Source: Pseudomonas furukawaii (GTDB taxonomy: Bacteria; Pseudomonadota; Gammaproteobacteria; Pseudomonadales; Pseudomonadaceae). From it: 64,000 nucleotides of DNA. The translations under genes and the position numbers were made by a program. How positions within the stretch are numbered: position 1 is the first letter of the stretch; each line of letters begins with the position of its first letter. The notes below the pieces were generated by a model that ran no database searches, was not told the origin of the DNA, and saw nothing but the letters and a program-made list of their open reading frames with translations. This document shows positions 9,710-47,143 of this stretch, piece by piece. The stretch lies in NCBI RefSeq assembly GCF_002355475.1, contig NZ_AP014862.1, forward strand, positions 4,402,001 through 4,466,000. Reading direction: 5' to 3'.

Positions 9710-9754
9710 TTCTATCTCCTTTGCCGGTGCTTCCCGGCGATCGTTTCCGGGAAG

Positions 9755-13817: not shown

Positions 13818-13824
13818 GGGGGCC

Positions 13825-16177: not shown

Positions 16178-16186
16178 GGTGGGTCC

Positions 16187-28527: not shown

Positions 28528-28819
28528 TCTCGACTCCTTTTCTGACAAGTGTGTTCATTGCCGATGCGACCCGTTTCCGCCGCCAGGCTTCCGGGATGAC
28601 CAGACAGCCAAGGTCTGGCGACTGGAAGCGCATGGCCAGGCAATGGCAGGGGTGAATCGATGATCATCAAACGCGCGCGGGAAAGCGCTGGGAGGCTTGC
28701 ACCAGCGGAACCGGGGGCGCCGGGGCCAATGGCAGCGGCAGAATACTCCGGTTGCGGGTCTGAATGCATCGCCCGGTAAAGCCAGAATGACATCATCGTC
28801 TGCGCGGTAACGGATCCTG
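28528..28819. other. Intergenic region upstream of the MCP gene
   Basis: About 290 nt with no supported gene. The only structure I see is an inverted repeat CCAGAC-N7-GTCTGG at 28600-28618. No clear FliA or sigma-54 promoter was recognised. Confidence 0.5.
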
Positions 28820-29090: not shown

Positions 29091-29095
29091 CCTGC

Positions 29096-29716: not shown

Positions 29717-30015
29717 GGAAGTTCTCCTTGCTTGGGTTGTGCGCCGGTCTCGGAAGCCGGCGGCGCCGTGGATAGCCTGGCGAGCACGGCCAGGCCCTGA
29801 ACACCTGGGAAGGGAAAGGTTAGGCAAGGCGCGTGACCCGGCGCTGACACGCAGGCCCGGCACGACGAACGGTCGTGCCCGACCCTGCCCGGCAAGACAC
29901 ACAGGGTCCGGGGAAAATGGGGCGCGTGGCGACAAGCGGCGAAGGTCCGCGAAAACCAATGCCCGGCGATGCTGTCCATAATGACGCGCCCTTCACGCGC
30001 CTCCGGGAGGCCCAG

Positions 30016-30630
30016 TTGTCCGCAGCAACCCCGCTCAACCTGCTCCGCCAGTCCATCCTCGCCCTGTCCCTGTTCGCCACCGCCGCCGTCGCCTGTCCCA
30101 ACGGGCAGTCCAGGGTCTGCGTGGTGACCTGCTTCTGCGCGCCCGGCCAGCCCGGGGACATCGCCCCGCTGCTGGAGCAGGTCAACGGCATGGCGGCGAG
30201 CAGCCTGCAGCAGTGGATCCAGCAGTCCCGGGCGCAGATGCCGGAAAGCGACCTGCGCCCCATCCCCCTGCACATCCGCGCCCAGCTGGAGCCCTACTAC
30301 GACCTGCGGGTACTGGACACCGCCCGCTACAAGGTGGGCGTGGGCCAGGAACTGGACGCCGCCAGCACCCTGATGCAGAACCCCGACGTGCAGGCCGTGA
30401 CCCTGGTGGACGTGATCGTCTTCCGCCACCCGGAGGACGCCGAGGACGACGTCGCCCTCTGGGCCCATGAACTCTTCCATGTGCAGCAGTACCTGGACTG
30501 GGGCGTGGAAGACTTCGCCCGCCGCTACACCCAGGACTTCAACGCGGTGGAAGCCCCCGCCTACAAGATCCAGGCCGATGTGGCCCGCGCGCAGAAACCC
30601 GGGGTCACCACCGCCGCCCGGCAGCCCTGA
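30016..30630 (+). CDS. Secreted protein with HELFH zinc-binding motif (DUF4157-like)
   Basis: I propose a TTG start at 30016 because GGGAGG lies 5 nt upstream and it gives a clean signal peptide (hydrophobic ILALSLFATAAVA, then CPNG). An ATG at 29959 is the alternative. The mature part, about 180 aa, contains HELFHVQQY (about residues 151-159), a zincin HExxH motif of the kind found in DUF4157/eCIS-core proteins, and a downstream Glu (AVEAPAYKIQAD) that could be the third ligand. Four Cys near the mature N-terminus (CPNG, VCVVTCFC) are unusual. The function is not known and protease activity is not proven. Confidence 0.7.
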   Translation: MSAATPLNLLRQSILALSLFATAAVACPNGQSRVCVVTCFCAPGQPGDIAPLLEQVNGMAASSLQQWIQQSRAQMPESDLRPIPLHIRAQLEPYYDLRVLDTARYKVGVGQELDAASTLMQNPDVQAVTLVDVIVFRHPEDAEDDVALWAHELFHVQQYLDWGVEDFARRYTQDFNAVEAPAYKIQADVARAQKPGVTTAARQP

Positions 30631-30783: not shown

Positions 30784-31449
30784 CTAGCCCTTCTGCTCGA
30801 TGAACTCGATCATCCGCTCATTGCCATCGAGGATATCGGTGCAGATGGCCTCGCGTGCGGCGGTCCCATTGCCCTGCTGCAAGGCACGAAGCACCTCCCA
30901 GTGGTGATCGATGGCCATGCGTTCGTTGAAGCTGCCGTATGCGAGCGCGATCAGCGGGCCGGTGCGCATCCACAGGCTGTCGAGGAAGCCGCCCAGCAGC
31001 GGCATGCCGGCGATGTCGGCCAGGGCGTAATGGAAGGCCTGGTTGAGCTTGAGGGCAGCGGCCAGGTCATCGGCGTGAATGGCCGCCAGGTTGTCGCGGA
31101 TGTTGCTCTCCAGCATCGCCAGTTGCGCCGGGGTCACCCGGGAAGCGGCGGTTTCCGCCGCCAGGCCCTCCAGGGCCAGGCGGATGCTGCGGATCTCGAG
31201 GTACTGCTCGCGAGTCAGCACCGGCACGCGGATATCCCGGGGGGTCTTCAGCACCAGGGCCTGCTCCTTGGCCAGTTGCAGGATGGCGTCACGCACAGGG
31301 GTCACGCTGGTGCCCAGTTGCTCCGCGAGGTCGCGGATGCGCAGCTTGTCGTCCGGCCGGAAGCGCCCGCTGATCAAGGCCTCCCGCAGCAGGCCATAGA
31401 TGCTGCTGCCGAGGTAGGCATGATTGAGGTCTTGGATCGGGTAGTTCAT
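30784..31449 (-). CDS. GntR-family regulator (FadR/FCD subfamily)
   Basis: This 221-aa transcription factor starts at ATG 31449 (MNYPIQDLNHAYLG). The N-terminal winged helix (about residues 12-80) contains LRIRDLAEQLGTSVTPVRDAILQLAKE. The C-terminal FCD ligand domain (about 88-212) has the conserved Asp/His metal-binding pattern around LNQAFHYALADIAG and AIDHHWEVLRAL. It follows the SDR gene on the same strand. A 14-bp palindrome in the SDR-binding protein intergenic region is its likely operator. Confidence 0.88.
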   Translation of the reverse strand: MNYPIQDLNHAYLGSSIYGLLREALISGRFRPDDKLRIRDLAEQLGTSVTPVRDAILQLAKEQALVLKTPRDIRVPVLTREQYLEIRSIRLALEGLAAETAASRVTPAQLAMLESNIRDNLAAIHADDLAAALKLNQAFHYALADIAGMPLLGGFLDSLWMRTGPLIALAYGSFNERMAIDHHWEVLRALQQGNGTAAREAICTDILDGNERMIEFIEQKG

Positions 31450-31522
31450 GGATGGCTCATCCGCTGCCGTGGGGTCGCCGGCGGAATGATCGGGTTTTCC
31501 ACAGGCGAACGCCAGCATCGCC

Positions 31523-32257
31523 TCAGACATGCTGACCGCCATTCACGTGGATTTCCGCCCCATTCACATAGGAGGCGCCACGGGTGCAGAGGAAATGCAC
31601 CAGCGCCGCCACTTCCTCCGGCTGTCCCAGGCGATGCAGGGGGATGTCCCGCTCGACGATCTGCTCGGTGCCGGACGACAGGATCGAGGTCTCGATCTCC
31701 CCCGGGGCGATGGCGTTGACCCGTACGCCGTAGGGACCGAAGTCATGGGCCATCTCCCGGGTCAGCGCCGCCAGCGCGGCCTTGGAGCAGGCATAGGCGG
31801 CACCCGCGAAGGGATGCACCCGGGAACCGGCGATGGAGGTGACGTTGATCACGCTCCCCTGGGCGGCCTTCAGCTCGTCGAACAGCCCCCTCGCCAGCAG
31901 CGCGGTGCTGAACAGGTTGACGTTGAAGACCTTGAGCCAGGTCCCGTAGTCGGAGGCCAGCACGCCCAGTCGCTCGCCCTCCTCTCCCTTCGGGGAAATG
32001 CCGGCGTTGTTCACCAGCGCATCCAGACGCCCACCGAGCTTTTCCCGCAGCAGCGGCAGGCTGGCCTCGACGCTGTGGATATCTTCCAGGTCCAGGTGGA
32101 TGTGGTTCAGCACCCCCTCGGCCCAGGGGCAATCCTCCACCCAGTCCTGGCGCGAGGCGGTGAACACCCGCCAGCCGGCGGCGTTGAAGTGCTTGACGGT
32201 GGCGTGGCCGATGCCTCGGCTGGCGCCGGTCAACAGCAGGGTCTTGGGGTGGCTCAT
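31523..32257 (-). CDS. Short-chain dehydrogenase/reductase
   Basis: This classical NAD(P)-dependent SDR of 244 aa has the cofactor loop TGASRGIG (residues 10-17), NNAG (about 83-86) and the catalytic Ser141 (VTSIAGS), Tyr155 and Lys159 (YACSK). It oxidises or reduces a hydroxyl/keto group on an unknown substrate. It is transcribed ahead of the GntR regulator gene and divergently from the binding protein-kinase-lyase operon. It may therefore act on the same compound or an upstream intermediate. Confidence 0.88.
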   Translation of the reverse strand: MSHPKTLLLTGASRGIGHATVKHFNAAGWRVFTASRQDWVEDCPWAEGVLNHIHLDLEDIHSVEASLPLLREKLGGRLDALVNNAGISPKGEEGERLGVLASDYGTWLKVFNVNLFSTALLARGLFDELKAAQGSVINVTSIAGSRVHPFAGAAYACSKAALAALTREMAHDFGPYGVRVNAIAPGEIETSILSSGTEQIVERDIPLHRLGQPEEVAALVHFLCTRGASYVNGAEIHVNGGQHV

Positions 32258-32306
32258 GACGGACTCCGGTGGCGGGGTGATGGCGTCAGCCTACACCAGT
32301 AAAAAT

Positions 32307-32320
32307 TATGATGCATCATA
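32307..32320. promoter_or_regulatory. Perfect 14-bp palindrome TATGATGCATCATA (probable GntR operator)
   Basis: The sequence equals its own reverse complement. It lies in the 270-nt divergent region between the SDR-GntR operon and the binding protein operon, about 50 nt from the SDR start. FCD-type GntR regulators often bind TGNATGCATNCA-like palindromes centred on ATGCAT, so it is the natural site for the adjacent regulator. Confidence 0.65.
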
Positions 32321-32527
32321 TTCCAAATATGTTTTAATCCCCCTGCCCCGTGACAACGACAACAAGACGTGAGGTTCTCGATGCGCCACCTGCATGTACC
32401 GGCCGCGCTCAGGCGTCAGCCGGCCCCGAAGGACGCACCGCGCGTGCGCCATCACGACAGTTCCTGCCTTCCCCTTGAAGCTGCCATCACCCATCCGAGC
32501 CCCCGAGGCTCGTCCAGGAGAGACCGC

Positions 32528-33559
32528 ATGACCAAGAAAGTCGCAGTACTGGCCCTGCTGAGCGCTTGCGCCACGCCGTTGTTCGCCGACGACAGCCTGA
32601 CCGTGGTGTCCTTTGGCGGCGACAACCGCCAGGCCCAGGAAAAAGCCTTCTACCAGCCCTTCAGCGCCTCCCAGGGCACCACTATCCGGGCCGCCGACTA
32701 CAACGGCGAGATGGCCAAGATCAAAGTCATGGCCGATACCGGCCAGACCACCTGGGACGTGGTGGAGGTGGAAACCCCGGAGCTGCTGCGCGGCTGCAGC
32801 GAGGGCCTGTTCGAGCCGCTGGACTGGAGCCGGATCGGCCAGCAGGCGGACTTCCTCCCCGCCGCCGTCAGTGAGTGCGGCGTGGGCATCTTCATCTGGT
32901 CCACGGTACTGACCTACGACGCCACCCGCCTGGGCGGCGCGCCGCAGAGTTGGGCGGACTTCTGGGACCTGGAGAAATTCCCCGGCAAGCGCGGGCTGCG
33001 CCGGGGCGCCAAGTTCACCCTGGAGATCGCCCTGCTCGCCGACGGCGTGCCCCAGCAGGACCTCTACACGACACTCGCCACCCAGGAGGGCATCACCCGC
33101 GCCTTCCGCAAGCTCGACCAGATCAAGTCCAGCATCCAGTGGTGGGAGGCCGGCGCCCAGCCCCTGCAGTGGCTGGCCGCCGGTGACGTGGTCATGACCT
33201 CCGCCTACAACGGCCGGGTCACCACCGCCCAGAAGGAGGGCCAGCCCTTCAGCATCCAGTGGAACGGCAGCCTCTACGACCTGGACCACTGGGCCATCGT
33301 CAAGGGCAGCCCCAACAAGGCGCAGGCCGAGCGTTTCATCGCCTTCGCCAGCGAACCGGAGCAGCAACGGGACTTCGCCACGGCCATCCCCTACGGCCCG
33401 AGCAATATCCACACCCTCGCGCTGCTGGACGCCGCCATCCGCCAGAACCTGCCCACCGCACCCGACAACCTGGCGAACGCCCGCGCCATGGATACCGAGT
33501 TCTGGATCGACCACGGCGAGGAACTGGAGGAACGGTTCAACGCCTGGGCCAGCAAGTGA
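32528..33559 (+). CDS. Periplasmic substrate-binding protein (polyamine/PotD-like, orphan)
   Basis: This extracytoplasmic binding protein of an ABC importer has 343 aa from ATG 32528, preceded by AGGAGA. It has a signal peptide (MTKKVAVLALLSACATPLFA) and a spermidine/putrescine-binding (SBP family 1/8) fold: LTVVSFGGDNRQAQEKAFYQPF, TTWDVVEVETPELLRGC, VVMTSAYNGRV. No ATPase or permease gene is next to it, so it must borrow a transporter encoded elsewhere. It is followed 58 nt later by the kinase gene in what looks like one operon, linking import with phosphorylation. Confidence 0.87.
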   Translation: MTKKVAVLALLSACATPLFADDSLTVVSFGGDNRQAQEKAFYQPFSASQGTTIRAADYNGEMAKIKVMADTGQTTWDVVEVETPELLRGCSEGLFEPLDWSRIGQQADFLPAAVSECGVGIFIWSTVLTYDATRLGGAPQSWADFWDLEKFPGKRGLRRGAKFTLEIALLADGVPQQDLYTTLATQEGITRAFRKLDQIKSSIQWWEAGAQPLQWLAAGDVVMTSAYNGRVTTAQKEGQPFSIQWNGSLYDLDHWAIVKGSPNKAQAERFIAFASEPEQQRDFATAIPYGPSNIHTLALLDAAIRQNLPTAPDNLANARAMDTEFWIDHGEELEERFNAWASK

Positions 33560-33617
33560 GGATCGGGCCGGCCCCTCGCGGGCCGGCCACCAGCCTGTTT
33601 TCATCGGAGTCGATGCA

Positions 33618-34685
33618 ATGTCGCTACAGCAAGCCATAGTCCACGACCAACTGCTGCAATCCGCCCCGGCGCAGGTCAGCGATGCCGAGGCCGCAGAGGT
33701 TATCCAGCGCCACTTCGCCCTCAGCGGGCGCCTGGAACGACTCGGTGGCGAACGAGACCTGAACTTCCGCGTGCTTTGCGAGGATGGCTCGTCGCGCCTG
33801 CTCAAGCTCTCGCATCCCCTGGAGGACCCGGAGGTGGTGGACTTCCATAACGGCGCCATGCGCCGCCTCGAGGAGCGTGACCCCGAACTTCCGGTGCAGC
33901 GGGTCTACCCCACCCGGGACGGCCATTTCATGGCCGAGGCGGATATCGCGGGCCAACGCCTGATCGCGCGCCTGCTGTCCTTCGTCGACGGCCTGCCGCT
34001 GCATCGGGTGGCGGTGCGCAGCCCGGCGTTGCGCCGCAACCTGGGTGAAGCGCTCGCCCGCTTCGACCGCGCCCTGGAAGGCTTCGACCATCCCGCCGCC
34101 GATCACGAACTGCTCTGGGACATGCAGCATGCCCAGCGCTTGCGCCCCCTGCTGGTGTACATCGAACAGGGCCTACGCCGCGACCTGGTGGAAAGGTGCC
34201 TCGACACCTATGTCAGGGACGTCCTGCCGCGCCTGCCCGGGCTACGCCGCCAGGTGATCCACAATGACCTCAATCCCCATAACCTGATCGTCGATGCCGC
34301 GCACCCCGAGCAACTGCGCAACATCCTCGACTTCGGCGACATGGTCCGCGCGCCGAGAGTCAATGACCTGGCCGTGGCCGCCTCCTACCAGTTGGACACC
34401 TCCGGCGACGTCCTAGCGCCGGCCCTGGAGTTCATCGCCGCCTACCACACCTGCAACCCCCTGGAGGCCGCGGAAGTCGAGCTGCTGCCGGAGCTGATCG
34501 CAACGCGGCTCGCCCTGACCCTGTGCATCAACTCCTGGCGCGCCGTGATCCACCCGGAAAACCGCGACTACATCCTGCGCAACACGGAACGCGCCTGGTC
34601 CAGCCTCGAGCGGCTGGTCCAGGTCTCTCACCTCGAGGTCCACAGGAGGACCCGCCACGCCTGCATCCAGGAGATACGCCCATGA
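33618..34685 (+). CDS. Small-molecule kinase, APH/choline-kinase fold (hydroxylysine- or homoserine-kinase-like)
   Basis: This 355-aa protein of the aminoglycoside phosphotransferase superfamily has a GERDLNFRVL nucleotide-loop region (about 44-53), Lys63 for ATP, the Brenner motif HNDLNPHN (about 215-222) and the metal-binding DFG (ILDFGDM). The N-terminal GERDxNF pattern is typical of kinases paired with AGXT2-like phospho-lyases (human HYKK, 5-hydroxylysine kinase). The stop overlaps the start of the PLP enzyme gene (ATGA), so the two are made together. I infer that it phosphorylates a hydroxy-amino compound whose phosphate the next enzyme eliminates. A housekeeping homoserine-kinase role is less likely. 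Confidence 0.8.
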   Translation: MSLQQAIVHDQLLQSAPAQVSDAEAAEVIQRHFALSGRLERLGGERDLNFRVLCEDGSSRLLKLSHPLEDPEVVDFHNGAMRRLEERDPELPVQRVYPTRDGHFMAEADIAGQRLIARLLSFVDGLPLHRVAVRSPALRRNLGEALARFDRALEGFDHPAADHELLWDMQHAQRLRPLLVYIEQGLRRDLVERCLDTYVRDVLPRLPGLRRQVIHNDLNPHNLIVDAAHPEQLRNILDFGDMVRAPRVNDLAVAASYQLDTSGDVLAPALEFIAAYHTCNPLEAAEVELLPELIATRLALTLCINSWRAVIHPENRDYILRNTERAWSSLERLVQVSHLEVHRRTRHACIQEIRP

Positions 34686-36007
34686 GCATGATCAACGGCT
34701 TCAGCGCCGCCGACGCCGAGCGCCTGTCCGCCCACGAACGAAGCCTGATCGAACGCCGCGAGCGCCTGCTCGGCCCGGCCTACCGGCTGTTCTACGAACG
34801 CCCGCTGCACACCGTGCGTGGCGAAGGCGTCTGGCTGTTCGACGACCAGGGGCGCCGCTACCTGGATGCCTACAACAACGTCGCCTCCGTGGGTCACTGC
34901 CACCCCCGTGTGGTGAGCGCCATCAGCCGCCAGGCGGCGCAGCTCAACACCCATACCCGCTACCTGCAGGAAGGCATCCTCGACTACGCCGAGCAACTGC
35001 TGGGCACCTTTCCCGACTACCTGGAACGGGTGATGTTCACCTGCACCGGCAGCGAGGCCAACGACCTTGCCCTGCGCATCGCCCGCCATCACACCGGCGG
35101 CACCGGCGTCATCATCACCCGCTTCGCCTACCACGGCGTCACCGGCGACCTCGCTGAACTCTCGCCGTCGCTGGGCGCGGGCATCCGCCTCCCGGCCCAC
35201 GCCCGTACCGTTCTCGCGCCGGACGCCTACCGACTGGGCGCCGACCAGGTGGCCGCCACGCTCGCGGCCGACGTCCGCGCAGCCATCGACGACCTGCGCG
35301 CCCAGGGCATCCGCCCCGCCGCGTTGCTGCTGGACGGCATTTTCTCCAGCGACGGCGTGTTCCCGGGCCCCGCCGGCTTCCTCGCCGAAGCGGTGGCGCT
35401 GGCCCAGGCGGAAGGCCTGCTGTACATCGCCGACGAGGTGCAATCGGGTTTCGCCCGCACCGGCGACGCCTTCTGGGGCTTCGAGCGCCACGGCGTGCGC
35501 CCCGACCTGGTGACCCTCGGCAAGCCCATGGGCAACGGCCAGCCCATCGCCGGCCTGGTGGGCCGGGCCGAGGTGGTGGACGGGTTCGGCCGCAACCTGC
35601 GCTACTTCAACACCTTCGGCGGCAACCCGGTCTCCTGCGCCGCCGGGCAGGCGGTGCTGGACGTCATTCGTGACGAGGAACTGCAAGCACGGGCCAGGGA
35701 GACCGGTCGCTACCTGCTGCAAGGCCTCGGGCGCCTGCAGCAGCGCCATGCCCTGATCGGCGATGTCCGCGGAGCTGGGCTGTTCCTCGGCGTGGAACTG
35801 GTGAAGGACCGAGCCAGCCAGGCCCCCGCCGCCGCCGAAACCCGGCGGGTGGTCAACGCCATGCGCGAGCGCGGCGTCCTAATCAGCGCGGCGGGCCCCC
35901 TGGAGAACATCCTGAAGATCCGTCCGCTGCTGGCCTTCGAGCGGGAACACGCGGACCTGCTGCTGGAAACGCTGGACGCCGCGCTGGACGAGGTCGGGGC
36001 GCCATGA
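34682..36007 (+). CDS. Class III PLP aminotransferase-fold enzyme, AGXT2-like phospho-lyase candidate
   Basis: This 441-aa fold-type I PLP enzyme has the PLP lysine at 281 (TLGKPMGNGQPIAG) and the Asp that contacts the pyridine nitrogen at 251 (IADEVQSGF). The GKPMGNGxPxA segment and LLDGIFSSDG resemble the AGXT2L1/AGXT2L2 group, where relatives act as O-phosphoethanolamine and 5-phosphohydroxylysine phospho-lyases rather than transaminases. Overlap with the upstream kinase gene supports a kinase-then-eliminate pathway releasing aldehyde, ammonia and phosphate. A simple omega-transaminase remains possible. Confidence 0.82.
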   Translation: MSMINGFSAADAERLSAHERSLIERRERLLGPAYRLFYERPLHTVRGEGVWLFDDQGRRYLDAYNNVASVGHCHPRVVSAISRQAAQLNTHTRYLQEGILDYAEQLLGTFPDYLERVMFTCTGSEANDLALRIARHHTGGTGVIITRFAYHGVTGDLAELSPSLGAGIRLPAHARTVLAPDAYRLGADQVAATLAADVRAAIDDLRAQGIRPAALLLDGIFSSDGVFPGPAGFLAEAVALAQAEGLLYIADEVQSGFARTGDAFWGFERHGVRPDLVTLGKPMGNGQPIAGLVGRAEVVDGFGRNLRYFNTFGGNPVSCAAGQAVLDVIRDEELQARARETGRYLLQGLGRLQQRHALIGDVRGAGLFLGVELVKDRASQAPAAAETRRVVNAMRERGVLISAAGPLENILKIRPLLAFEREHADLLLETLDAALDEVGAP

Positions 36008-36032
36008 CGGACGCCCCCGCCAAACGCCAGAA

Positions 36033-36056
36033 GGCCTGAAGCACAGGCTTCAGGCC
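36033..36056. terminator. Bidirectional hairpin between convergent lyase and RidA genes
   Basis: GGCCTGAAGC and GCTTCAGGCC form a perfect 10-bp stem around a 4-nt loop. It sits in the 65-nt convergent gap. No strong T run follows on either strand. Confidence 0.6.
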
Positions 36057-36072
36057 GCCGCCGGGAAAGGAC

Positions 36073-36417
36073 TCAAGCGCTGCGATACGCCAGCACCCTG
36101 ATCTCCACGGCGTAGCCGCCCAGGCCGCTCTCCACGCAGGCGCGCACCGGTTTCGGGCAGCCCTCGATCCAGGCGTCGTAGACCTCGTTGAAGGCATCGA
36201 AGTCGCGGTAGTCGGCCAGCCAGGCCTGTACCCGGACCAGGTCCCGGCGGCTGACGCCAACGCGCTCCAGCAAGGCGTCGATGCTGGCCAGCGCCTGGCG
36301 CGCCTGGGCGCGGACATCCAGCGAGGGATCATCGGCGCAGATCCCCGCCGTCTCGAAGAAGGGCCCGTAGGCGACGGCCTGGGCCATGCGCCGGCCTTCG
36401 TCAAATCGCTCGATCAT
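36073..36417 (-). CDS. RidA/YjgF/Rid family protein
   Basis: RidA-type proteins hydrolyse reactive enamine/imine intermediates released by PLP enzymes. The 114-aa protein starts at ATG 36417 (MIERFDEGRRMAQAVAYG) and follows AAGGGAG. It has a core resembling ALASIDALLERVGVSRRDLV and ends in CPKPVRACVESGLGGYAVEIRVLA, which keeps an Arg (PVRACVE) in the position needed for deaminase activity. It follows the aldehyde dehydrogenase gene by 92 nt and may belong to the same operon. Its presence supports PLP-dependent elimination chemistry in this island. Confidence 0.88.
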   Translation of the reverse strand: MIERFDEGRRMAQAVAYGPFFETAGICADDPSLDVRAQARQALASIDALLERVGVSRRDLVRVQAWLADYRDFDAFNEVYDAWIEGCPKPVRACVESGLGGYAVEIRVLAYRSA

Positions 36418-36509
36418 GCTCAGCTCCCTTGAAAAAAGCGCACCGGACGGCGCGGCGAGCGGACCCGCCCGGTGCAAAGGACGACCGCGAACGGTCGTCA
36501 CCTGACGGT

Positions 36510-37928
36510 TCAGCTCAACTCGTTGATGCACACCACCTTGGGCTGCGTCATGTCCTCGTAGGCGAAGCGCACGCCCTCGCGCCCCAGGCTGCCGTACTTG
36601 AAGCCGCCGAAGGGCATGGCATCGAAGCGGTAGTCGGACGAATCGTTGATCATCACGCCGCCGGCCTCGATCCGCCGCGCGGCCCAGAGGGCGCGGCGCA
36701 GGTCGCGGGTGAAGATGCCGGCGTGCAGGCTGTACTCCGGCTCGTTGGCCAGGGCCACGGCGTCTTCCAGGGTCTCGAAGGACTCCAGCACCACCACCGG
36801 CGCGAAGACTTCCTGGCGCCAGAGGCGGCTGCGATGGTCCACCCCTTCCAGCACCGTGGGGTGGTAGAGCGCGCCTTCCCGGCGCTGGCCACAGAGCAGG
36901 GTCGCCCCTTCGGCGAGGGCTTCCGCCACCACCTGCTCGGTGGCGCGGGCGGCCTGTTCGGTGATCATCGGGCCCATGTCGCTGTCCGGCCGGGACGGGT
37001 CGCCCACCACCAGCGCCCGGGTCCGGGCCAGGAAGCGCTCGCGGAACTCGGCATAGATCGAAGCCTGCACCAGGATGCGCTGGGTGCCGATGCAGTTCTG
37101 CCCGGCCGCCCAGAAGGCGCCGGAGACACAGGACTCGACGGTGGCCTCCAGTTCGCAGTCGTCCAGCACCAGCACCGGGGCGTTGCCGCCCAGGTCCATC
37201 GCCAGCTTCTTCAGGCCGGCGGTGCGGGCGATGTGCTCACCGGTGACGAAGCCGCCGGTGAAGGAAATCATCCGCACCTCCCGGGCCGAGGTCAGCGCCT
37301 TGCCCAGGTCCGCGCCGCCGGTGGCGAGGGTCACCACCTCGCTCGGCAGGCCCGCCTCGCGCAGGCAATCCACCAGCCTGCACGCCGACAGTGGCGCCAA
37401 CTCGGACGGCTTGAGCAGGACGCCATTGCCGCCGGCGATGGCCGGCCCAAGCTTGTGCGCCACCAGGTTCAGCGGGTCGTTGTAGGGCGTGATTGCGACG
37501 ATCAGCCCCAGGGGCTCGCGGGAGAACCAGCCCTGGCGGGACTCGGAGCCCTCGTAGGCGTCGAAGGGCACCACCTCGCCCGCGTTGCGCCGGGCCTCCT
37601 CGGCCGAGAGCTTCAGGGTGTTGATGCAGCGCTTCACTTCCTTCTGCGCCTGGCGCAGGGTCTTGCCGGCCTCGGCGACGATCAGGGCGGCAAAAGCGGC
37701 GGCGTCCTGCTCCACCCGCCGCGCGGCCTCCTCGAGGATGGCGGCGCGCCGGTGCCGGGGTAGCGCGGCGCAGCGGCGCACGCCTTCGCGGGCGGTCGCC
37801 AGCAGCGCGGGAACATCGGCGACGGTCAGGCAGGGCACGCTGCCGACATGGCTGCCATCGAAGGGATTGCGGACCTCGATGGCGGTGTTCTCAGCGGTCT
37901 TGGCCAGGGCCAGGGACGAGAGGGTCAT
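36510..37928 (-). CDS. NAD(P)-dependent aldehyde dehydrogenase
   Basis: This ALDH of 472 aa starts at ATG 37928, 6 nt after GGAG; an in-frame TTG 6 nt upstream is less likely. The oxyanion Asn (TPYNDPLN), cofactor Lys (LLKPSEL), SFTGG loop and nucleophile Cys279 (GQNCIG) are present. The usual LELGG general-base Glu is replaced by Asp245 (MDLGGNAP). It begins 15 nt after homoserine dehydrogenase on the same strand, so aspartate semialdehyde (to aspartate) or aminoadipate semialdehyde are plausible substrates. The assignment is inference from neighbours. Confidence 0.87.
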
Positions 37929-37943
37929 GGGCAACTCCTGGGC

Positions 37944-38987
37944 TCACTGGCGGCCGTGGGTGGCGTGGAGGGCGACGATATCGGAGAGCAGCGCGAAGGC
38001 GGTCTCGATGCGACCGGCCCCCGGCCCGGACAGGGTGACCGCGCCCAGCAGCTCGGTGTTGAAGGCCAGGGCGTTGGTGGCCCCGGTGATCCCGGCCAGC
38101 GGGTGGCCGAGGTCCAGCTTGCGGGCCTCGACCCGCGCCGATACCGAACCGTCGGCCTGACGCTGGGCGGAGCCGATCAGCTTCCAGCGGGCGCCCTCCT
38201 CCCGTGCCTGGGCCAGGTCGGCCGGGGTCAGGGCGCTGATGCCGCTGCAGGCCACGTCGCTGACCGAGAGGTGGGCGTCCAGCAGTTCGTTGGCGAGGAT
38301 CACCACCTTCAGGCGCACGTCGTGGCCTTCCACATCCGCCGTCGGATCGGCCTCGGCATAGCCCAGCTCCTGGGCCTTGGCCACCGCCGCGTCGAAGCCG
38401 AGACCCTCCTCCATGCGGGTCAGCACGTAGTTGGAGGTGCCGTTGAGGATGCCCTCGAAGCCGACGATGCCAGCGCCCGGCAGCGTCTGCCGCGCCATGC
38501 GGATCACCGGGGTGCCGCTCATCACCGCGCCCTCGTACTCGAAGGCCACGCCGTTGCGTCGGGCCAGGGCCTTGAGCTCGGCACCGTGCAGGGCGATCGG
38601 CCCCTTGTTGGTGGTGACCACATGCTTGCCGCTTTCCAGGGCCCAGCGGCAGAAGGTGGCGGCCGGCTCGCCGTCCACCGGGTTGGTGAAGGTGGCCTCG
38701 GCGATGAGGTCGGCGCCGGACTGCTTGATCACCGCCTCGTTGAAGGCTTCGGCGGTGCCGCCCGGCAGGGTGGCGAAGGCGCCCTTGATCGCCGGCAGGT
38801 CCGCCAGCTGGGCGGCGTCCAGGCCGTCGCGGTCGATGAGGGAGCCGAGGAAGAGGTCGGTGACCCCGACGATCTTCAGGCTGAAGCCCAGCTCGCGCTG
38901 CCAGGCTGCGTTGCGCTCGGCCACCAGGCGGGCCAGGCCACGGTTCACACCACCAAAGCCCACCAGGGCGATCTTGTATTCGGTCAT
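37944..38987 (-). CDS. hom: Homoserine dehydrogenase, ACT-less (probably catabolic)
   Basis: This enzyme interconverts homoserine and aspartate 4-semialdehyde with NAD(P). The 347-aa protein starts MTEYKIALVGFGGVNRG (Rossmann loop with Asn in place of the common Gly in GxVG) and follows GGAGG. Catalytic region: Lys128 in VTTNKGP and ADPTADVEGHDVRLK with Lys227. It lacks the C-terminal ACT domain of the feedback-regulated biosynthetic form. It sits upstream of an aldehyde dehydrogenase with a 15-nt gap, which suits oxidation of homoserine to aspartate rather than threonine synthesis. Confidence 0.87.
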   Translation of the reverse strand: MTEYKIALVGFGGVNRGLARLVAERNAAWQRELGFSLKIVGVTDLFLGSLIDRDGLDAAQLADLPAIKGAFATLPGGTAEAFNEAVIKQSGADLIAEATFTNPVDGEPAATFCRWALESGKHVVTTNKGPIALHGAELKALARRNGVAFEYEGAVMSGTPVIRMARQTLPGAGIVGFEGILNGTSNYVLTRMEEGLGFDAAVAKAQELGYAEADPTADVEGHDVRLKVVILANELLDAHLSVSDVACSGISALTPADLAQAREEGARWKLIGSAQRQADGSVSARVEARKLDLGHPLAGITGATNALAFNTELLGAVTLSGPGAGRIETAFALLSDIVALHATHGRQ

Positions 38988-39153
38988 CAGGTGCCTCCAA
39001 TCCGGCGTTTGCTCGATGGAGTCAGCCTAAGAGCCGGCCAGTGGCAGTTGAATAGGCCAATCCGCTGTATTTATTGGGCGTTTTGCCCAGTGCCGGAACG
39101 GCCCACGCGGGCTCGTCCGGAGGGGCTACAGAGGTGCGGAAATGGCGCAGACG

Positions 39154-39186
39154 AAAAGGCCCCGGCACGCGTGGCGTGCCGGGGCC
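39154..39186 (-). terminator. Intrinsic terminator after the Lrp gene
   Basis: Minus-strand 13-bp stem GGCCCCGGCACGC / GCGTGCCGGGGCC with a 3-nt loop is followed by TTTTCG. It ends the LysR/threonine-synthase-like/Lrp transcript, so homoserine dehydrogenase must have its own promoter in the following 165 nt. Confidence 0.85.
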
Positions 39187-39211
39187 CGGGTCCTGGAGCG
39201 AGGGGATGGGC

Positions 39212-39649
39212 TCAGATGACTGCGGAGAGCACGAAGGAGGTAACGGTATTGGCGACGCCGGGCATGGCGGAGATTTCCCGCCAGACGCCGTGGACGCGGT
39301 CCGGCGTGGCGGCTTCGACCCGCAGCATCAGGTCGAACTCGCCGCTCATCACGTCGCACTGCGTCACCTCGGGAATGGCCCGCAGGTCCCGCAGCACTTC
39401 CTCGCCGCGCATGCGGTCGTGGCGGTAGACGAAGATCACCGCGCTGATCAGCGCCGCCGCGCGGCGGCCGTCGCCCACCTTGAGGGTGTAGCCCTGGATG
39501 GCGCCGTCCCGCTCCAGGCGTTCGATGCGCTGGCGCACGGCATTGCGTGACAGGTTGACCTTGGTGCCCAGTTCGGCGTGGGCGATCCGCGCATTGGCGG
39601 TCAGTTCGGCCAGTATCCGCTCATCCAGCGGGTCGAGGATTCGCTTCAT
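39212..39649 (-). CDS. Lrp/AsnC-family regulator
   Basis: This 145-aa feast/famine regulator starts at ATG 39649 (MKRILDPLDERILAELTANAR). The N-terminal helix-turn-helix (about 20-45, AELGTKVNLSRNAVRQRIERLE) is followed by a RAM domain (about 68-140, with VTQCDVMSGEFDLMLRV) that binds amino acids. It is 13 nt downstream of the threonine-synthase-like gene and upstream of the homoserine dehydrogenase/aldehyde dehydrogenase genes, so it probably senses the island's amino acid. It is not global Lrp, judging by its location. Confidence 0.88.
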   Translation of the reverse strand: MKRILDPLDERILAELTANARIAHAELGTKVNLSRNAVRQRIERLERDGAIQGYTLKVGDGRRAAALISAVIFVYRHDRMRGEEVLRDLRAIPEVTQCDVMSGEFDLMLRVEAATPDRVHGVWREISAMPGVANTVTSFVLSAVI

Positions 39650-39662
39650 CGCGGCAAATTCC

Positions 39663-41033
39663 TCAGGCCCCGGCCAGGGCCTGGCGCAGGCCCTCCAGGT
39701 CGGTGCGGGCATAGCGCCGCGCGTGTGCAAGGGGTGTTGCCGGGGCGGGCGGTGGCGATGGCCAGGCGCCCAGGCTGGCCAGCAGCGTGGCGGATTTTTC
39801 CGGGGCGATCTGGCCCAGGGTGACCATCGGCGTGACCACGCTGCGGCGGTAGAGCCGCGCGGCCAGTACGCCGGTGGCGGTGTGCGGGTCCATGGGCAGG
39901 CCGGTGTCGCGGAACAGCGAGACGATCTCCGCCTCGGTCTGGGCGTCGTCCACTGCGTAGGAGTCGATCAGCATCCGCGCCTGCAGCCATTGCGGGTTGC
40001 CGATGCTCAGTTCGCCGGTGGCCTCCAGGCGCTCCATCAGGCCGCGCACGGCCTGGTCATCGTGGTCGTAGAGCTCCCACACCAGCCGCTCGACGTTGGA
40101 GAACACCGAGAAATCCATGGCCGGCGACAGGGTCGAGCTGGCCTCTCGGGTGCCGTAGCGGTTGCGGTGGATGAACTGGTGCAGGGCGTCGTTGCGGTTG
40201 GTGGAGACGATGATCTGGTTCACCGGCAGGCCCATTTTCTGCGCCACGTAGCCGGCGTAGACCTCGGCGAAGCTGGCGGCGGGAATGCTGAAGCCGATGG
40301 GGCGCTGGCCGCCTCCCAGCTGCAGGGCGGCGTGGAAGTAGAAGACGATCTGCGCCAGCACGCCGACCCAATTGGAGGAGTTGAAGCCGATGGCCAGGTG
40401 CTCGCTGGGCCATTGGGCGAAGAGCCGCGACACCAGCCGCTGGCAGTCGTCGAAGCTGCCCTCAAGGGGATAGCCGCGCACCCGCTCGGACTCGGCGGCC
40501 TGCAATGCCGCCAGGCGGTCCGCCGGCACGCCGCGCTCCGGGTAGAGCATCACCACCCGGCTGCGGCGGCACTCGCCGAAGGCGGCGACGGCCGCGAGGC
40601 CCGTATCGCCGTTGGTAGCACCGAGCACCAGGGCCTCGCGCCCCTCCCGTTCGAGGAAGTGACTGGCCAGGCGCGCATGCAACTGGGCGGCGAAATCCTT
40701 GGAGGACCGGGTGGGCCCGTGGAACAGCTCCAGCACCCACTCGTTGCGGTCCACCTGGCGCAAGGGCGCGATGGCGCGGTGACCGAAGCGCTGGTAGCAG
40801 GCCTTCAGCAGCGCGCGCAGTTCGTCCTCGGCGATCGACTCGCCGACGAAGGGCGCGATCACCCGCCAGGCCAGCTCCTCGAAGGGCAGCCAGGACCAGG
40901 TGGCGATCTCCTGCACGCTGAACACCGGCAGGCTGGCCGGCACGAAGAGGCCGCCATCGGGGGCCAGCCCCGACAGCACGACGCTGCGGAAATCCGCGCG
41001 CACGGCGGCGCTGCGGGTACTCAGGTAATGCAT
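39663..41033 (-). CDS. Threonine synthase-like PLP enzyme with altered active site
   Basis: This fold-type II PLP enzyme of 456 aa is clearly related to ThrC over its full length (MHYLSTR, PDGGLFVP, ELFHGPT, TNRNDALHQF, DPHTATGV). The PLP lysine is retained as Lys112, but its surroundings differ from canonical ThrC: LAFKDFALQ is RSSKDFAAQ, the phosphate loop GATSGDTGSAA is GATNGDTGLAA (138-148), and VPTGNFGDI is IPAASFAEV (250-258). It follows a LysR gene by 14 nt. I regard it as a catabolic or otherwise neofunctionalised paralogue, perhaps acting like THNSL2 on O-phosphohomoserine, not as the housekeeping enzyme. Confidence 0.8.
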   Translation of the reverse strand: MHYLSTRSAAVRADFRSVVLSGLAPDGGLFVPASLPVFSVQEIATWSWLPFEELAWRVIAPFVGESIAEDELRALLKACYQRFGHRAIAPLRQVDRNEWVLELFHGPTRSSKDFAAQLHARLASHFLEREGREALVLGATNGDTGLAAVAAFGECRRSRVVMLYPERGVPADRLAALQAAESERVRGYPLEGSFDDCQRLVSRLFAQWPSEHLAIGFNSSNWVGVLAQIVFYFHAALQLGGGQRPIGFSIPAASFAEVYAGYVAQKMGLPVNQIIVSTNRNDALHQFIHRNRYGTREASSTLSPAMDFSVFSNVERLVWELYDHDDQAVRGLMERLEATGELSIGNPQWLQARMLIDSYAVDDAQTEAEIVSLFRDTGLPMDPHTATGVLAARLYRRSVVTPMVTLGQIAPEKSATLLASLGAWPSPPPAPATPLAHARRYARTDLEGLRQALAGA

Positions 41034-41047
41034 GTTCACTCCCGAAA

Positions 41048-41938
41048 TCAGGTGGATCGATGGGCCTGGGCCACCAGCCAAATGGCGAAGGCCTGGGCAT
41101 CCGGGTGCAGCTCGGTGCCGGAGCCGCTGACCAGGTAGAAGGATTCGCTGGCCTCGATGCGGCAGTCGAACAGCTCCACCAGGCGCCCTTCGCGCAACAG
41201 GTCCTCGACCATGGACGAGCGCGCGAGCGCGATGCCCTGCCCCAGCTCCGCCATGCGCAGGGTGGAGACCAGGGTGTCGAACTGCGGGCCGGTGGCGTAG
41301 TCCACGTCCTCGGCGCCGGCGCGCTGCAGCCAGTAGCCCCAGCCCTCCTCGTAACCCAGCACATGGAGCAGGGGATGGCGGGCGACATCCCGTGGTTCGC
41401 GCAGGGGGCCCTGTGCCAGCAGCTCCGGCGAGCAGACCGGGAACAGGGTGTCCCAGGTCAGCCGCTGGGACAGCAGGCCCGGCCACTGGCCGTGACCCCA
41501 GCGGATTTCCACATCGTCCTCGCCGTCCAGTTCCTTCACCCAGAGGTTGCTGATGTAGCGGATATCCAGCTGCGGATGGGCCCGACGAAAGTCCGCCAGC
41601 CTGGGTGCCAGCCAGAAATGCAGGAACGACAGGCTGCCCCTGACCTTGATCGGCCGGCGCTTGTGCTGGCCGAAGATCTCGTTGGTGCCCACCGCCAGCC
41701 GGGTGATGGCGTCCTGCACCACGGGCAGGTAGGACTGGCCCTCTTCGGTGAGCCCGAGCCCCCGGGGCAGGCGCTTGAACAGCGCCACCCCGAGGTGGCT
41801 TTCCAGCTGCCGGATCTGCTGGCTGACGGCGCCCTGGGTCAGGTGCAGTTCCTCCGCCGCATGGGTGAAGTTGAGGTACCGCGCCGAGACTTCGAAGGCT
41901 CGCAGCCAGTTCAGGGGAGGCAGGGCTTTCGGATTCAT
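41048..41938 (-). CDS. LysR-family regulator (GcvA-like)
   Basis: This 296-aa LysR protein starts MNPKALPPLNWLRAFEVSAR, the N-terminus of the GcvA/AmpR/TrpI branch. The helix-turn-helix is at about residues 23-45 (FTHAAEELHLTQGAVSQQIRQLE) and the co-inducer domain at about 95-290. It is co-directional with the threonine-synthase-like and Lrp genes downstream (14-nt gap) and 38 nt downstream of the amino acid permease gene. It is therefore embedded in the operon rather than divergent, and may autoregulate. Confidence 0.87.
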   Translation of the reverse strand: MNPKALPPLNWLRAFEVSARYLNFTHAAEELHLTQGAVSQQIRQLESHLGVALFKRLPRGLGLTEEGQSYLPVVQDAITRLAVGTNEIFGQHKRRPIKVRGSLSFLHFWLAPRLADFRRAHPQLDIRYISNLWVKELDGEDDVEIRWGHGQWPGLLSQRLTWDTLFPVCSPELLAQGPLREPRDVARHPLLHVLGYEEGWGYWLQRAGAEDVDYATGPQFDTLVSTLRMAELGQGIALARSSMVEDLLREGRLVELFDCRIEASESFYLVSGSGTELHPDAQAFAIWLVAQAHRST

Positions 41939-41976
41939 GGTCGGGACCTCGGGACGGCGGAGTGGGAAGGAATCGC

Positions 41977-43416
41977 TCAGGCCGCCTCGGGCACCCTAGC
42001 CGGGGCCACGGGCGAAACCTGGCGCCGTTCGCGCAGCTTGCGGGTCACCCAGTAGACGAAGTAGCACCAGGCAATGAACGGCACGCCGAAGTAGAGCGCA
42101 ACTCGCTGGGCCGGATCAAAGGCAATCCCGATGCAGGCCAGCGCGCAGCAGAGCAAGGCGCCCAGGGGCACCCAGGGATAGCCGCGCACGCGGAAGCCCA
42201 GGTCCTCCAGGCGACCGCCGTTGGCCAGGTAATGGCGACGGAAGGCCATCTGGCTCGCGGCGATGCTCATCCACACCACCACCACCGCCAGGCCGGAGAT
42301 GGACACCAGGGCGAGGTAGACGGTATCCGGTGCGAACACGCTGGAGAGCAGCGAGGCGATGCTGCCGGCCATGCTCACGACGATGGCGTTGAACGGCGTG
42401 CCCATGCGGCTCAGGGTGCCGAAGCGCTTGGGCATGTGGCCCTGGTCGCTGAGGGTCCAGAGCATCCGCGAGGCGGCGTAGAGGCCGGAGTTGGCCGCCG
42501 ACAGCAGCGCGCTGATGATCACGAAGTTCATGATGTCGGCCGAATAGGGAATGCCGATGGACTCGAACACCGTGACGAAGGGGCTTTCCACCAGGCCGGC
42601 CTGCTCGCGGGGCAGCAGGGTCGCCAGCACGAAGATGGTGCCGACGAAGAACAGCGCCAGGCGGACCACCGTGGTGCGGATCGCCTTCGGCACGTTGCGT
42701 TGCGGGTCGCGCGTCTCGCCGGCGGCGATGCCGATCAGCTCGGTGCCGGAGAAGGCGAAGGCGACCGCCAGCAGGGTCATGGCGATGGACCAGAAACCGG
42801 TGGGAAACAGCCCCTCGCGGGTGAAGTTGGCCAGTCCCGCGCTCTGCACCTGCTGGGTCTCGAAGATGCCGAAGATGGCGCCACCGCCGACCACCAGGAA
42901 GGCCACCACGGCCAGGACCTTGACCAGCGACAGCCAGAACTCGGTCTCGGCGAACAGTCGCACCGACACCACGTTGCTGATGAACACCGTCAGGGCGAAC
43001 AGCGCGCTCCAGATCCACACCGGGGTCTCGGGGAACCAGCGCACCATGAGGATGCCGGCAGCGGTGAACTCCGAGCCGATGGCCACCGTCCAGGTCAGCC
43101 AGTAGAGCCAGGCCACGGTGTAGCCGGTGCCCGCGCCGAGGTAGCGGGAGGCGTAGCTGCTGAACGAACCGGTTTCCGGCATGTGCACGGCCAGTTCGCC
43201 CAGGCACATCATCACCATGTACACCATCACCGCGCCGATGATGTACGCGATCACCGCGCCCAGCGGTCCCGCCTGGTTCACCGTGTAGCCGGAGGTGAGG
43301 AACAGCCCGGTGCCGATGACCCCGCCCAGCGCCAGCATGACGATGTGGCGGGTCTGCATGTCCTGTTTGAAACCAGGCCCCGATGTCGCTTTGTCGTTTG
43401 TTGTATGTAGGGACAT
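41977..43416 (-). CDS. APC-superfamily amino acid permease (AAT family)
   Basis: This inner-membrane amino acid:proton symporter has 479 aa from ATG 43416 (MSLHTTND) and 12 predicted membrane segments. Family motifs include [15 protein letters not shown] (helix 1), the [15 protein letters not shown] stretch, and [17 protein letters not shown] between helices 6 and 7. AAT members carry diverse amino acids including GABA, proline, lysine and S-methylmethionine, so the substrate cannot be assigned. It follows the cystathionine-gamma-synthase family gene across a 144-nt AT-rich gap and precedes the LysR gene. Confidence 0.88.
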
Positions 43417-43560
43417 ATGTTGAATCTCATGAAAGTTTACGGACAAGGACGCTTCTGCGAACAACTTCAAGGCAGAACCAAACTGATTGCCGTCAGGTAT
43501 TTTTATTGTTCCGTTTCATGATCGACTCGCTGACTCTCCGGCCAGGAGTTGGGGCGAATG

Positions 43561-44838
43561 TCAGATTTCCACCTCGGTGCGACATTCGGTGAGGGATGGA
43601 AGGGAGTGGACTGGGGATGAGCAGGACAGCTCCTCATGAACGCAGGCGAACGCCTGCTTGAGATCGGCCAGGAGATCCTCGGTCTCCTCGATGCCGACCG
43701 AGACTCGCACCAGTCCCTCGGAAATCCCCAGGGCCAGGCGCTCCTCCAGGGTGTTTTCCACATGGCTGGTGGTGCGTGCGGGACCGTAGATGGTCTCCAC
43801 CGCCCCGAGGTTGCCGGCACGGTGCGCATAGCGAAGGCGCGGCAGCAGGCGGACCACGGTGTCCATGCCGCCGCGCAGCACGAAGCTGACGATGGCGCCG
43901 AAGCCGCGCATCTGCCCTCGGGCGATGGCATGCCCCGGATGGCTGGGCAGGCCCGGATAGTTCACCGCCTCCACCAGCGGTTCGGTCAGCAGGTACTCGG
44001 CCAGCGCCTGGGCACTGCGCTGCTGCTGGCGCAGGCGCAGGGCCAGGGTCTTGATGCCACGGATGATGAGGAAGGCGGAGAAGGCGTCCAGCGCGGCGCC
44101 GTTGATCTCGCGGTAGTGCCGCACGCTGGCCATCAGGCTTTCGGCGCCGCAGGCGATGCCGCCCAGGGCGTCACCGTGACCGGAGAGGAACTTGGTGGCG
44201 CTGTGCACCACCAGGTCCACGCCCAGGGCCAGGGGGTTCTGGTTGAGGGGCGTGGCGAAGGTGTTGTCCGCCACCACCAGGGCGCCGACGCGCTTGGCCG
44301 CGGCCACCAGGCGGCGGACGTCCAGCACCTTGAGCGTCGGGTTGGTGGGGGTTTCCAGGTACAGCAGGTCGCAGCCACGGGCGATTTCCGCCTCGATGGC
44401 CTCGGTATCCAGGGTGTCGCAGAGCACCACGTCCACGCCCATGCGCGGCAGGAACTCCTCGAAGATCTTGTTGGTGCCGCCGTAGCTGTCGCGGGTCGAG
44501 ACCACGCGCTTGCCCTGGCACAGGAAGGTGTGCAGCACCGCGCTGATGGCGGCCATGCCGCTGCTGAAGGCCACCGCCGATTCCGCGCCCTCCAGCTCGC
44601 AGAGCTTGGCTTCCAGGGTCGCCACCGTCGGGTTGCTCATGCGGCTGTAGATATAGCCTTCGCGCTGGCCCAGGGCGACCTCGTACCAATGATCGACATC
44701 CTGATAACCGTAGGCGGCGCTGACCACGATCGGCGTTTGCGTTGCGTTGTAAGGATGTCCGTCCTGCTCTCCGGCCCAGACGACTTGAGTACCCATTCCC
44801 GCAACTTCACCGCGAGCAGTTTCCGATTTCTTGTTCAT
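43561..44838 (-). CDS. Cystathionine gamma-synthase/lyase family PLP enzyme
   Basis: This Cys/Met-metabolism PLP enzyme of 425 aa has the PLP lysine at 216 (SATKFLSGHGD), the phosphate-binding SSGM (92-95), the stacking Tyr in DSYGGT and YSRMSNPT at the subunit interface. The family includes gamma-synthases, gamma-lyases and methionine gamma-lyase. Key specificity residues cannot be assigned with confidence. It is the first gene of the minus-strand run containing the permease, the threonine-synthase-like enzyme and homoserine dehydrogenase, so gamma-elimination or replacement on a homoserine- or methionine-like substrate is likely. Confidence 0.85.
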   Translation of the reverse strand: MNKKSETARGEVAGMGTQVVWAGEQDGHPYNATQTPIVVSAAYGYQDVDHWYEVALGQREGYIYSRMSNPTVATLEAKLCELEGAESAVAFSSGMAAISAVLHTFLCQGKRVVSTRDSYGGTNKIFEEFLPRMGVDVVLCDTLDTEAIEAEIARGCDLLYLETPTNPTLKVLDVRRLVAAAKRVGALVVADNTFATPLNQNPLALGVDLVVHSATKFLSGHGDALGGIACGAESLMASVRHYREINGAALDAFSAFLIIRGIKTLALRLRQQQRSAQALAEYLLTEPLVEAVNYPGLPSHPGHAIARGQMRGFGAIVSFVLRGGMDTVVRLLPRLRYAHRAGNLGAVETIYGPARTTSHVENTLEERLALGISEGLVRVSVGIEETEDLLADLKQAFACVHEELSCSSPVHSLPSLTECRTEVEI

Positions 44839-45024
44839 CTCTAATCCCGAATCCGCAAGACAACATCACGAAGCAGTTCTGCTTGCCGGCGAATATAGGG
44901 AATGGATAACCCCCTGAAAAACGATGATATCCGGGCCTGAGACCCGCTTTTTTTAATGGCTGCGAAGGGGCGGAATCGAACGCAGGCGACGCGACCGACT
45001 ACCCGGCAGGGCGCGAATGCGAAG

Positions 45025-47049: not shown

Positions 47050-47116
47050 TACATGGACTCTCGGGAGTGGGAACACGCCAGGTGCGAATACGCAGATGGC
47101 GAAGGGCGCTACCGGA

Positions 47117-47143
47117 CTATCGGCGCTGCCCGCCACTCCTTGA
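47117..47143 (-). promoter_or_regulatory. FliA (sigma-28) promoter for the dCache MCP
   Basis: Minus-strand TCAAGGAG-N11-GCCGATAG matches the flagellar/chemotaxis sigma-28 consensus (TCAAGTTT-N11-GCCGATAA) at the key positions. It is about 68 nt before the MCP start. The rest of the 307-nt gap to yghU shows only GC-rich inverted repeats. Confidence 0.7.

Follow-up and report, generated by a model that had tools for sequence, protein, structure and literature searches.

Does a 14-kb block of Pseudomonas furukawaii catabolic genes serve one pathway, or do two pathways merely adjoin here? The block occupies positions 30784-44838 of the window, the whole 64,000-nucleotide stretch that was analysed (C1:4402001-4466000 of the 6.24-Mb genome). 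An earlier note, made from the letters alone, had read it as one hydroxy-amino-acid island in which a kinase/lyase branch and a dehydrogenase branch run in parallel. Judged by comparison with relatives, the block is a pair of separately inherited cassettes, chance neighbours in this genome, with their border at the convergent gap 36008-36072. Below these are called module A and module B. Overall we are confident, short of certainty, that the modules are independent, module B being a catabolic operon and module A serving amine catabolism; the split, the gene sets and the enzyme families come from the comparison itself, and the reactions and substrates are what we infer from them.

The genes named in the earlier note all lie where it placed them and belong to the families it gave (Pfam, NCBIfam), with a codon-position GC pattern typical of coding sequence. 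Starts at 32528, 34682, 36417, 37928, 39649, 41033 and 43416 were picked by eye among candidate start codons. The features are as follows (locus handles begin with L).

30784..31542, minus strand: GntR/FCD regulator, module A (Pfam FCD, GntR; alternative start 31449 possible; 75-91% identity beside the short-chain dehydrogenase in L101-L105)
31523..32257, minus strand: short-chain dehydrogenase (SDR), module A (adh_short_C2; 86-91% identity in L101-L105)
32528..33559, plus strand: periplasmic binding protein of gamma-aminobutyrate (GABA)/polyamine/opine type, module A (SBP_bac_8)
33618..34685, plus strand: APH-fold small-molecule kinase, module A (APH)
34682..36007, plus strand: AGXT2-like class III pyridoxal-phosphate (PLP) enzyme, probable phospholyase, module A (Aminotran_3; PDB matches)
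36008..36072, no strand: convergent gap between the modules, 65 bp (the L101 alignment stops at 35994, that of L004 starts at 36083)
36073..36417, minus strand: RidA-type enamine/imine deaminase, optional in module B (Ribonuc_L-PSP)
36510..37928, minus strand: aldehyde dehydrogenase (ALDH), module B (Aldedh; proposed to turn aspartate semialdehyde into aspartate)
37944..38987, minus strand: ACT-less homoserine dehydrogenase (HSD), module B (NF004912; 65% to the pRL8 enzyme)
39212..39649, minus strand: Lrp/AsnC regulator, module B (Pfam; 57-70% identity in rhizobial loci L051-L065)
39663..41033, minus strand: threonine-synthase paralogue with altered active-site motifs (ThrC-like), module B (Thr_synth_N and PALP)
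41048..41938, minus strand: GcvA-like LysR regulator, module B (Pfam LysR, NCBIfam)
41977..43416, minus strand: APC permease of S-methylmethionine permease (MmuP) type, module B (AA_permease; 56% to E. coli MmuP)
43561..44838, minus strand: cystathionine-gamma-synthase (CGS) family PLP enzyme, module B (Cys_Met_Meta_PP; NF006097)

Conservation and separation of the two modules

Relatives cut the block in two at the gap. The closest named relative found, Pseudomonas otitidis DSM 17224 (L004), has proteins 91-98% identical to those of the seven module B core genes and a RidA that is 82% identical; its DNA aligns over 36432-44961 (91%) and 36083-36437 (83%, RidA), and module A is absent beyond. 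DNA of the module A locus L101 aligns over 30790-35994 (83%) and carries no module B. Both alignments thus end at the 65-bp gap, from opposite sides.

A homoserine-dehydrogenase scan of named genomes yielded 94 confirmed relatives, the best 80 of which were followed up to 10 kb on either side (some of these loci end early at contig ends). The seven core genes (CGS, permease, LysR, ThrC-like, Lrp, HSD and ALDH), each scored as present at 55% identity or more and half length, are complete in 46 of the 80 loci, and order and strand are the same in every one of the 46. Since L018 and L019 share one contig, these represent 45 assemblies. All full loci but one are titled Pseudomonas (45/46), the exception being a metagenome-assembled genome titled Paucimonas (L031). 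Partial versions occur as well: P. protegens (L048) and Pseudomonas sp. LD120 (L050) hold the HSD-ALDH pair without the remaining module B genes, and P. cichorii (L040) has the ThrC-Lrp-HSD-ALDH part without CGS and permease. L016 (about 5.1-10.0 kb) shows a gap of about 5 kb between Lrp and HSD, against less than 1 kb elsewhere, which implies an insertion. Of 148 family genomes, 9 have CGS (E<=1e-130), and exactly these 9 also have the ThrC-like gene (E<=1e-140); HSD (E<=1e-90) is present in all 9 and additionally in G528.

None of the 80 loci holds the module A set; at 40% identity or more, its genes are matched there only by a GntR regulator in L054 (43%) and a binding protein in L006 (63%). 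Conversely, a kinase search among 95 relatives gave 16 matches in 15 genomes (E<=1e-20). Of the 15 that lie outside the window, all but the one in G019 were inspected with 12-20 kb of surroundings, 14 loci in all. The lyase adjoins the kinase in all 14 loci, in three of them (L112-L114) within one open frame, and the order GntR-SDR-binding protein-kinase-lyase is intact in five (L101-L105). Module B occurs in none of the 14 stretches. RidA, which the earlier note had joined to the kinase and PLP enzymes, is likewise unmatched in these loci and instead accompanies the dehydrogenase half, in 11 of the 46 full loci. The earlier note had itself proposed co-conservation of the two convergent halves as a check; none was found in the loci, the genomes or the DNA alignments.

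Some observations do weigh against complete independence or against the scheme as a whole. Lyase orthologues of at least 79% identity occur in 18 of the 148 family genomes, and both module sets in 5 (the window's own, G009, G013, G040 and G546), compared to 1.1 expected for module B with the module A lyase (hypergeometric P=0.0014, uncorrected for kinship). On contig C43 of G007 a kinase-lyase pair of a second type (37/57% identical) lies 11.8 kb from the RidA gene of a complete module B. The 63% binding-protein homologue of P. boanensis (L006) is placed about 7 kb past RidA, near another ALDH. Finally, the ThrC-like enzyme has no assigned step in the route proposed below for module B.

Does this revive one integrated hydroxy-amino-acid island, with both branches acting on the same or related substrates? 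Adjacency in the window, the common themes (PLP enzymes, amino substrates), the above-chance co-occurrence in 5 of the 148 genomes and the paralogous pair in G007 would favour it. However, the modules lie on different contigs of draft assemblies in G009, G013 and G546 and 1.9 Mb apart in G040, and no module B was seen within 20 kb of module A surroundings in three of these genomes (L102 of G009, L101 of G013 and L103 of G040). The kinase in G007 is of another type, with other genes in between, and the second type is 1.6 Mb from module B in G012 and on a different contig in G013. Together with the absence of module A from the 80 HSD loci and of module B from the 14 kinase stretches, this leaves the single island a very slim chance, and on the synteny of both locus sets and the DNA alignments we reject it. 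The independent modules may at most share a weak ecological association, at the level of the genome and without linkage.

Module B and homoserine catabolism

Module B probably turns homoserine into aspartate. In the route that we propose, the MmuP-type permease would import an amino acid and the CGS-family enzyme would probably remove its gamma substituent to leave homoserine; HSD would then form aspartate semialdehyde and ALDH would convert this into aspartate. RidA, where present, would clear an enamine by-product, and Lrp and LysR would regulate the module. This explanation is weakest at the CGS step and in what the ThrC-like enzyme does.

The conversion of homoserine to aspartate by HSD and ALDH, already suggested in the earlier note, gains from the comparison. 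HSD scores 467.5 bits against NF004912 (cut-off 373), and its Homoserine_dh domain comes without an ACT match, as had been claimed. The Rhizobium plasmid pRL8 carries homologues of HSD (65% identity), ALDH (65%) and Lrp (57%), the first two adjacent to each other. ALDH comes after HSD in Pseudomonas, rhizobial and Arthrobacter loci alike, and in a plasmid search 56 records carried the dehydrogenase, of which Rhizobium, Sinorhizobium, Agrobacterium and Mesorhizobium accounted for 47. A passage of PMC10228743 cites a homoserine-catabolism gene cluster (Vanderlinde 2014) and puts the dehydrogenase orthologue of R. leguminosarum UPM791 near it; the passage also cites Liang 2022 for a strong preference of that dehydrogenase's family for homoserine oxidation. 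The pRL8 match, the sole one on that plasmid, appears to be pRL80071, which a passage of PMC3333776 describes as up-regulated in the pea rhizosphere. Family score, pRL8 identity and these passages taken together, homoserine oxidation is well supported as the predicted reaction of the module B dehydrogenase; ALDH would carry out the predicted step to aspartate.

The pRL8 homoserine region of Rhizobium 3841 resembles module B in its adjacent HSD and ALDH genes and nearby Lrp, but differs in that annotated ABC (ATP-binding cassette) transporters and a homoserine kinase lie there. The CGS, permease and ThrC-like proteins of module B gave no match in the 21-kb pRL8 stretch (E<=1e-10). No homoserine kinase turned up in module B by Pfam or NCBIfam, and at 38.6 bits the module A kinase stays below the model's cut-off of 271.

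Another parallel concerns canavanine. R. leguminosarum pRLN3 and M. huakuii pMHb carry a CGS-family PLP-enzyme gene between ABC transporter genes and the HSD-ALDH pair, and upstream of it on pRLN3 lies a gene annotated as B3/4 domain protein. According to a passage of PMC10018355, canavanine-gamma-lyase yields homoserine and hydroxyguanidine, and a B3/4 gene heads the canavanine operon. These loci and this passage make a CGS-family lyase feeding HSD and ALDH a known architecture. The canavanine operon of Pseudomonas canavaninivorans and Rhizobium, as far as that passage describes it, shares with module B a CGS-family gene accompanied by HSD and ALDH (L117, L119); by its neighbourhood, the L117 gene would be the characterised lyase. 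In module B, by contrast, the CGS is of another clade, B3/4 is absent from the block, an APC permease replaces the ABC transporter and the ThrC-like gene is extra. The CGS tree (37 rows, Pseudomonas rows thinned, several long branches; the L132 CGS, an uncalled gene, not included) places the module B enzyme in a clade of 8 rows with support 100/100, two of them from outside Pseudomonas, apart from a 10-row clade with the canavanine-type operon enzymes, that of L117 among them (identity 36%). B3_4, the domain of the canavanyl-tRNA deacylase, had no match among 20 proteins scanned from 26902-51781. On the separate clade and this lack of a B3/4 gene, a role as canavanine lyase is rejected.

The CGS enzyme, one of four CGS-family genes in the genome, scores 723.5 bits against NF006097 (PRK08249 cystathionine gamma-synthase family, cut-off 600), a model that names no substrate. 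Methionine gamma-lyase was rejected as well (381.3 bits against a cut-off of 549.7, and a YGGT motif). This YGGT is present in all 45 aligned Pseudomonas rows (truncated L016 excluded), at what we take to be the methionine gamma-lyase cysteine position, presumably Cys116 with its role in that enzyme. Outside Pseudomonas, homologues of 58-59% identity were found in 3 of 369 genomes besides the window's (E<=1e-120), and the stretches around them matched no further module B gene except a 29% ALDH in L132, giving no clue to the substrate.

The permease scores 642.7 bits against NF008484 (S-methylmethionine permease equivalog), below the cut-off of 716. It is related to MmuP of the E. coli mmuP-mmuM pair, but has no mmuM beside it; the genome has two S-methyl_trans genes, a short one at a distance of about 1.6 Mb and one in a frame of 1256 aa. 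Leucobacter musarum (L076, 3693-12450) combines a MmuP-type permease (57%) with a CGS of the 10-row canavanine-type clade, HSD, ALDH and Lrp, which suggests that such permeases import cationic gamma-substituted amino acids.

The ThrC-like protein, called a divergent paralogue in the earlier note, fits that description. It scores 158.6 bits against TIGR00260 (thrC, cut-off 167.1; scored on an over-long ORF) and retains the PLP lysine. Its motifs PTx(S/A/T)(S/A)KDF or PSGSAKDF and NG(D/E)T replace PT(L/V)AFKDF and SGDT of three reference ThrC proteins in all 46 aligned copies (L040 and 45 full loci, without L015, whose gene is split). A further motif reads NS(S/T/N)NW against NSINW of two references, the E. 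coli reference differing there. The references include the other ThrC of this genome, which shares 46% identity with the ThrC-like enzyme. Among 120 listed of 478 protein-database matches, the first change is found in 120 and the second in 117; the named organisms among these relatives are Pseudomonas or Metapseudomonas.

As to the substrate of module B, plain homoserine catabolism is a real, though somewhat doubtful, possibility: the permease would import homoserine, 2-oxobutyrate would arise as the CGS enzyme deaminates homoserine or an O-acyl form of it, and O-phosphohomoserine would be handled by the ThrC-like enzyme. The P. cichorii locus without CGS and permease fits this, as do the annotated pRL8 homoserine kinase beside Lrp, where Pseudomonas has the ThrC-like gene, and RidA, which suits an enamine-forming lyase; the MmuP type of the permease does not, and the motif changes in every aligned ThrC-like copy argue against the usual substrate. 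S-methylmethionine would fit both permease and chemistry. It would be imported and split by the CGS enzyme into dimethyl sulfide and homoserine, the latter going to aspartate, with the ThrC-like enzyme as a new PLP lyase on a gamma-activated substrate of the same kind; as a complete scheme we consider this unlikely. A search of the open-access PMC literature for S-methylmethionine retrieved nothing on such an operon.

The earlier note knew of no description of its gene combination. This stands for the seven genes in this exact set, for the CGS clade and for the ThrC paralogue, none of which was met in the open-access PMC papers searched (weak evidence of absence). Nonetheless the core logic of module B is already described and its parts are of known kinds. 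As sequence comparison presents it, module B is a variant distinguished by a CGS from a clade other than that of the canavanine lyase, a MmuP-like permease and a ThrC paralogue with altered motifs.

Module A and amino alcohols

Module A probably breaks down an amino alcohol. The periplasmic binding protein would capture a small amine, the kinase would phosphorylate the hydroxyl next to the amine-bearing carbon, and the lyase would eliminate phosphate and ammonia, leaving an aldehyde; SDR and GntR would belong to the same module. The lyase has as best PDB matches the phospholyase 5g4i (413 bits) and the ethanolamine-phosphate phospho-lyase 6tor (358), the next being a transaminase (197). The kinase matches the N-terminal part of PRK06148 (263 bits) and, in the PDB, 6ef6 alone (30 bits). 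From a phospholyase-like lyase whose APH kinase partner is adjacent or fused, one would predict that an amino alcohol is first phosphorylated and then converted to an aldehyde by elimination. The invariable adjacency in the 14 loci supports the functional pair of the earlier note, and the 4 bases shared by the two reading frames (33618-34685 and 34682-36007) make the translational coupling that it assumed plausible. A kinase working with an AGXT2-like lyase is phospholyase chemistry of a known kind. Module A resembles the AGXT2-like phospholyases (5g4i; human-type 6tor) in lyase family and kinase partner, adjacent or in one frame, and adds a binding protein, SDR and GntR.

A second kinase-lyase type (L107-L111) has 36-39% kinase and 57-59% lyase identity to the window pair. 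In L108 its Pfam neighbours are Lrp, ALDH, OCD, PALP, cupin and DAO, with homologues in L107, L109 and L110; its position with Lrp and ALDH genes is consistent with an aldehyde product. The OCD, PALP, cupin and DAO neighbours recall ectoine use.

The binding protein matches 9d57, 6dgv (GABA sensor) and 4eq7 in the PDB and resembles GABA, polyamine and opine binders. It is an orphan, as the earlier note had it: no ABC partners are present in the block. Paralogues of 63% and 58% identity lie elsewhere in the genome, the latter with an ABC ATPase gene and a permease gene as neighbours, a system that could lend membrane parts to the module A protein. The 63% paralogue is found at C1:4280700-4287400 (L140 4712-11394) with a class III aminotransferase, an APC permease, ALDH and SDR, likely an amine-catabolism locus. 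The best PDB match of the module A SDR, 4x54 (330 bits), is named only as an SDR-family oxidoreductase and gives no substrate clue.

As to the substrate, degradation of 4-amino-3-hydroxybutyrate, hydroxylysine or ethanolamine by kinase/phospholyase chemistry comes close to an even chance. It accords with the GABA-type binding protein and with the ethanolamine-phosphate lyase as second-best match of the lyase, but there is no substrate-specific marker, nor does any NCBIfam model for such a kinase or lyase score above cut-off. We give distinctly less credit, as rather improbable, to an aminoacetone/1-aminopropan-2-ol route (dehydrogenase, kinase and phospholyase, ending in propionaldehyde) without a microcompartment. 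The sole kinase match 6ef6 is presumably the M. smegmatis aminopropanol kinase, though at 30 bits the match is weak, and 6ci8/6ci9, which we assume to be the microcompartment aminopropanol dehydrogenase, are absent from the 48 SDR matches at E<=1e-25. Compared to the Aut (RMM) aminoacetone microcompartment, module A has no shell genes among the proteins scanned and no ALDH, and its SDR is not close to that presumed dehydrogenase. The likeness lies in a similar family list (GntR, APH kinase, aminotransferase family and dehydrogenase) in a passage on the Rhodococcus Aut cluster (PMC6620236).

Surroundings and significance

A YcaC-type hydrolase gene (29094-29730) beyond module A has an 81% identical match in P. 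otitidis (L004, 14975-15614), 1.7 kb past RidA and in reversed orientation relative to module B; by this position and orientation, module A may have entered nearby with a rearrangement. An eCIS core domain protein (29875-30630; aligned 30000-30590) adjoins module A in the window, and its homologue in L101 (11739-12503; 70%, blastp) lies on the other side of module A. Two chemoreceptor genes flank the block, of 4HB type (26902-28548) and of dCache type (45109-47709). Since the listed ORF of the dCache receptor runs into a GST-family gene (47357-48202), the receptor probably starts later. Flagellar rod/hook genes (64-10438) and, after them, a FUSC-HlyD-OEP efflux set with LysR (12906-18896) are ordinary. 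No Rfam family matched the window at gathering threshold.

The P. putida genes PP_0659-PP_0665 are presumably module B. If PP_0665 is, by this position, the module B ALDH, its annotation as glyceraldehyde-3-phosphate dehydrogenase is doubtful. A passage of PMC5141268 counts PP_0665 of P. putida KT2440 as a gene for that enzyme, with no significant transcription under the conditions tested.

Recognizing two portable cassettes instead of one pathway guards against inferring a wrong substrate from chance adjacency. The seven-gene cassette is common in Pseudomonas, and two of its members, the ThrC-like enzyme and ALDH, can easily be mistaken for housekeeping enzymes. An S-methylmethionine-hydrolysing activity was reported long ago from soil bacteria; should the S-methylmethionine reading of module B be true, the cassette would provide a gene for that activity and would be a widespread source of dimethyl sulfide in Pseudomonas.

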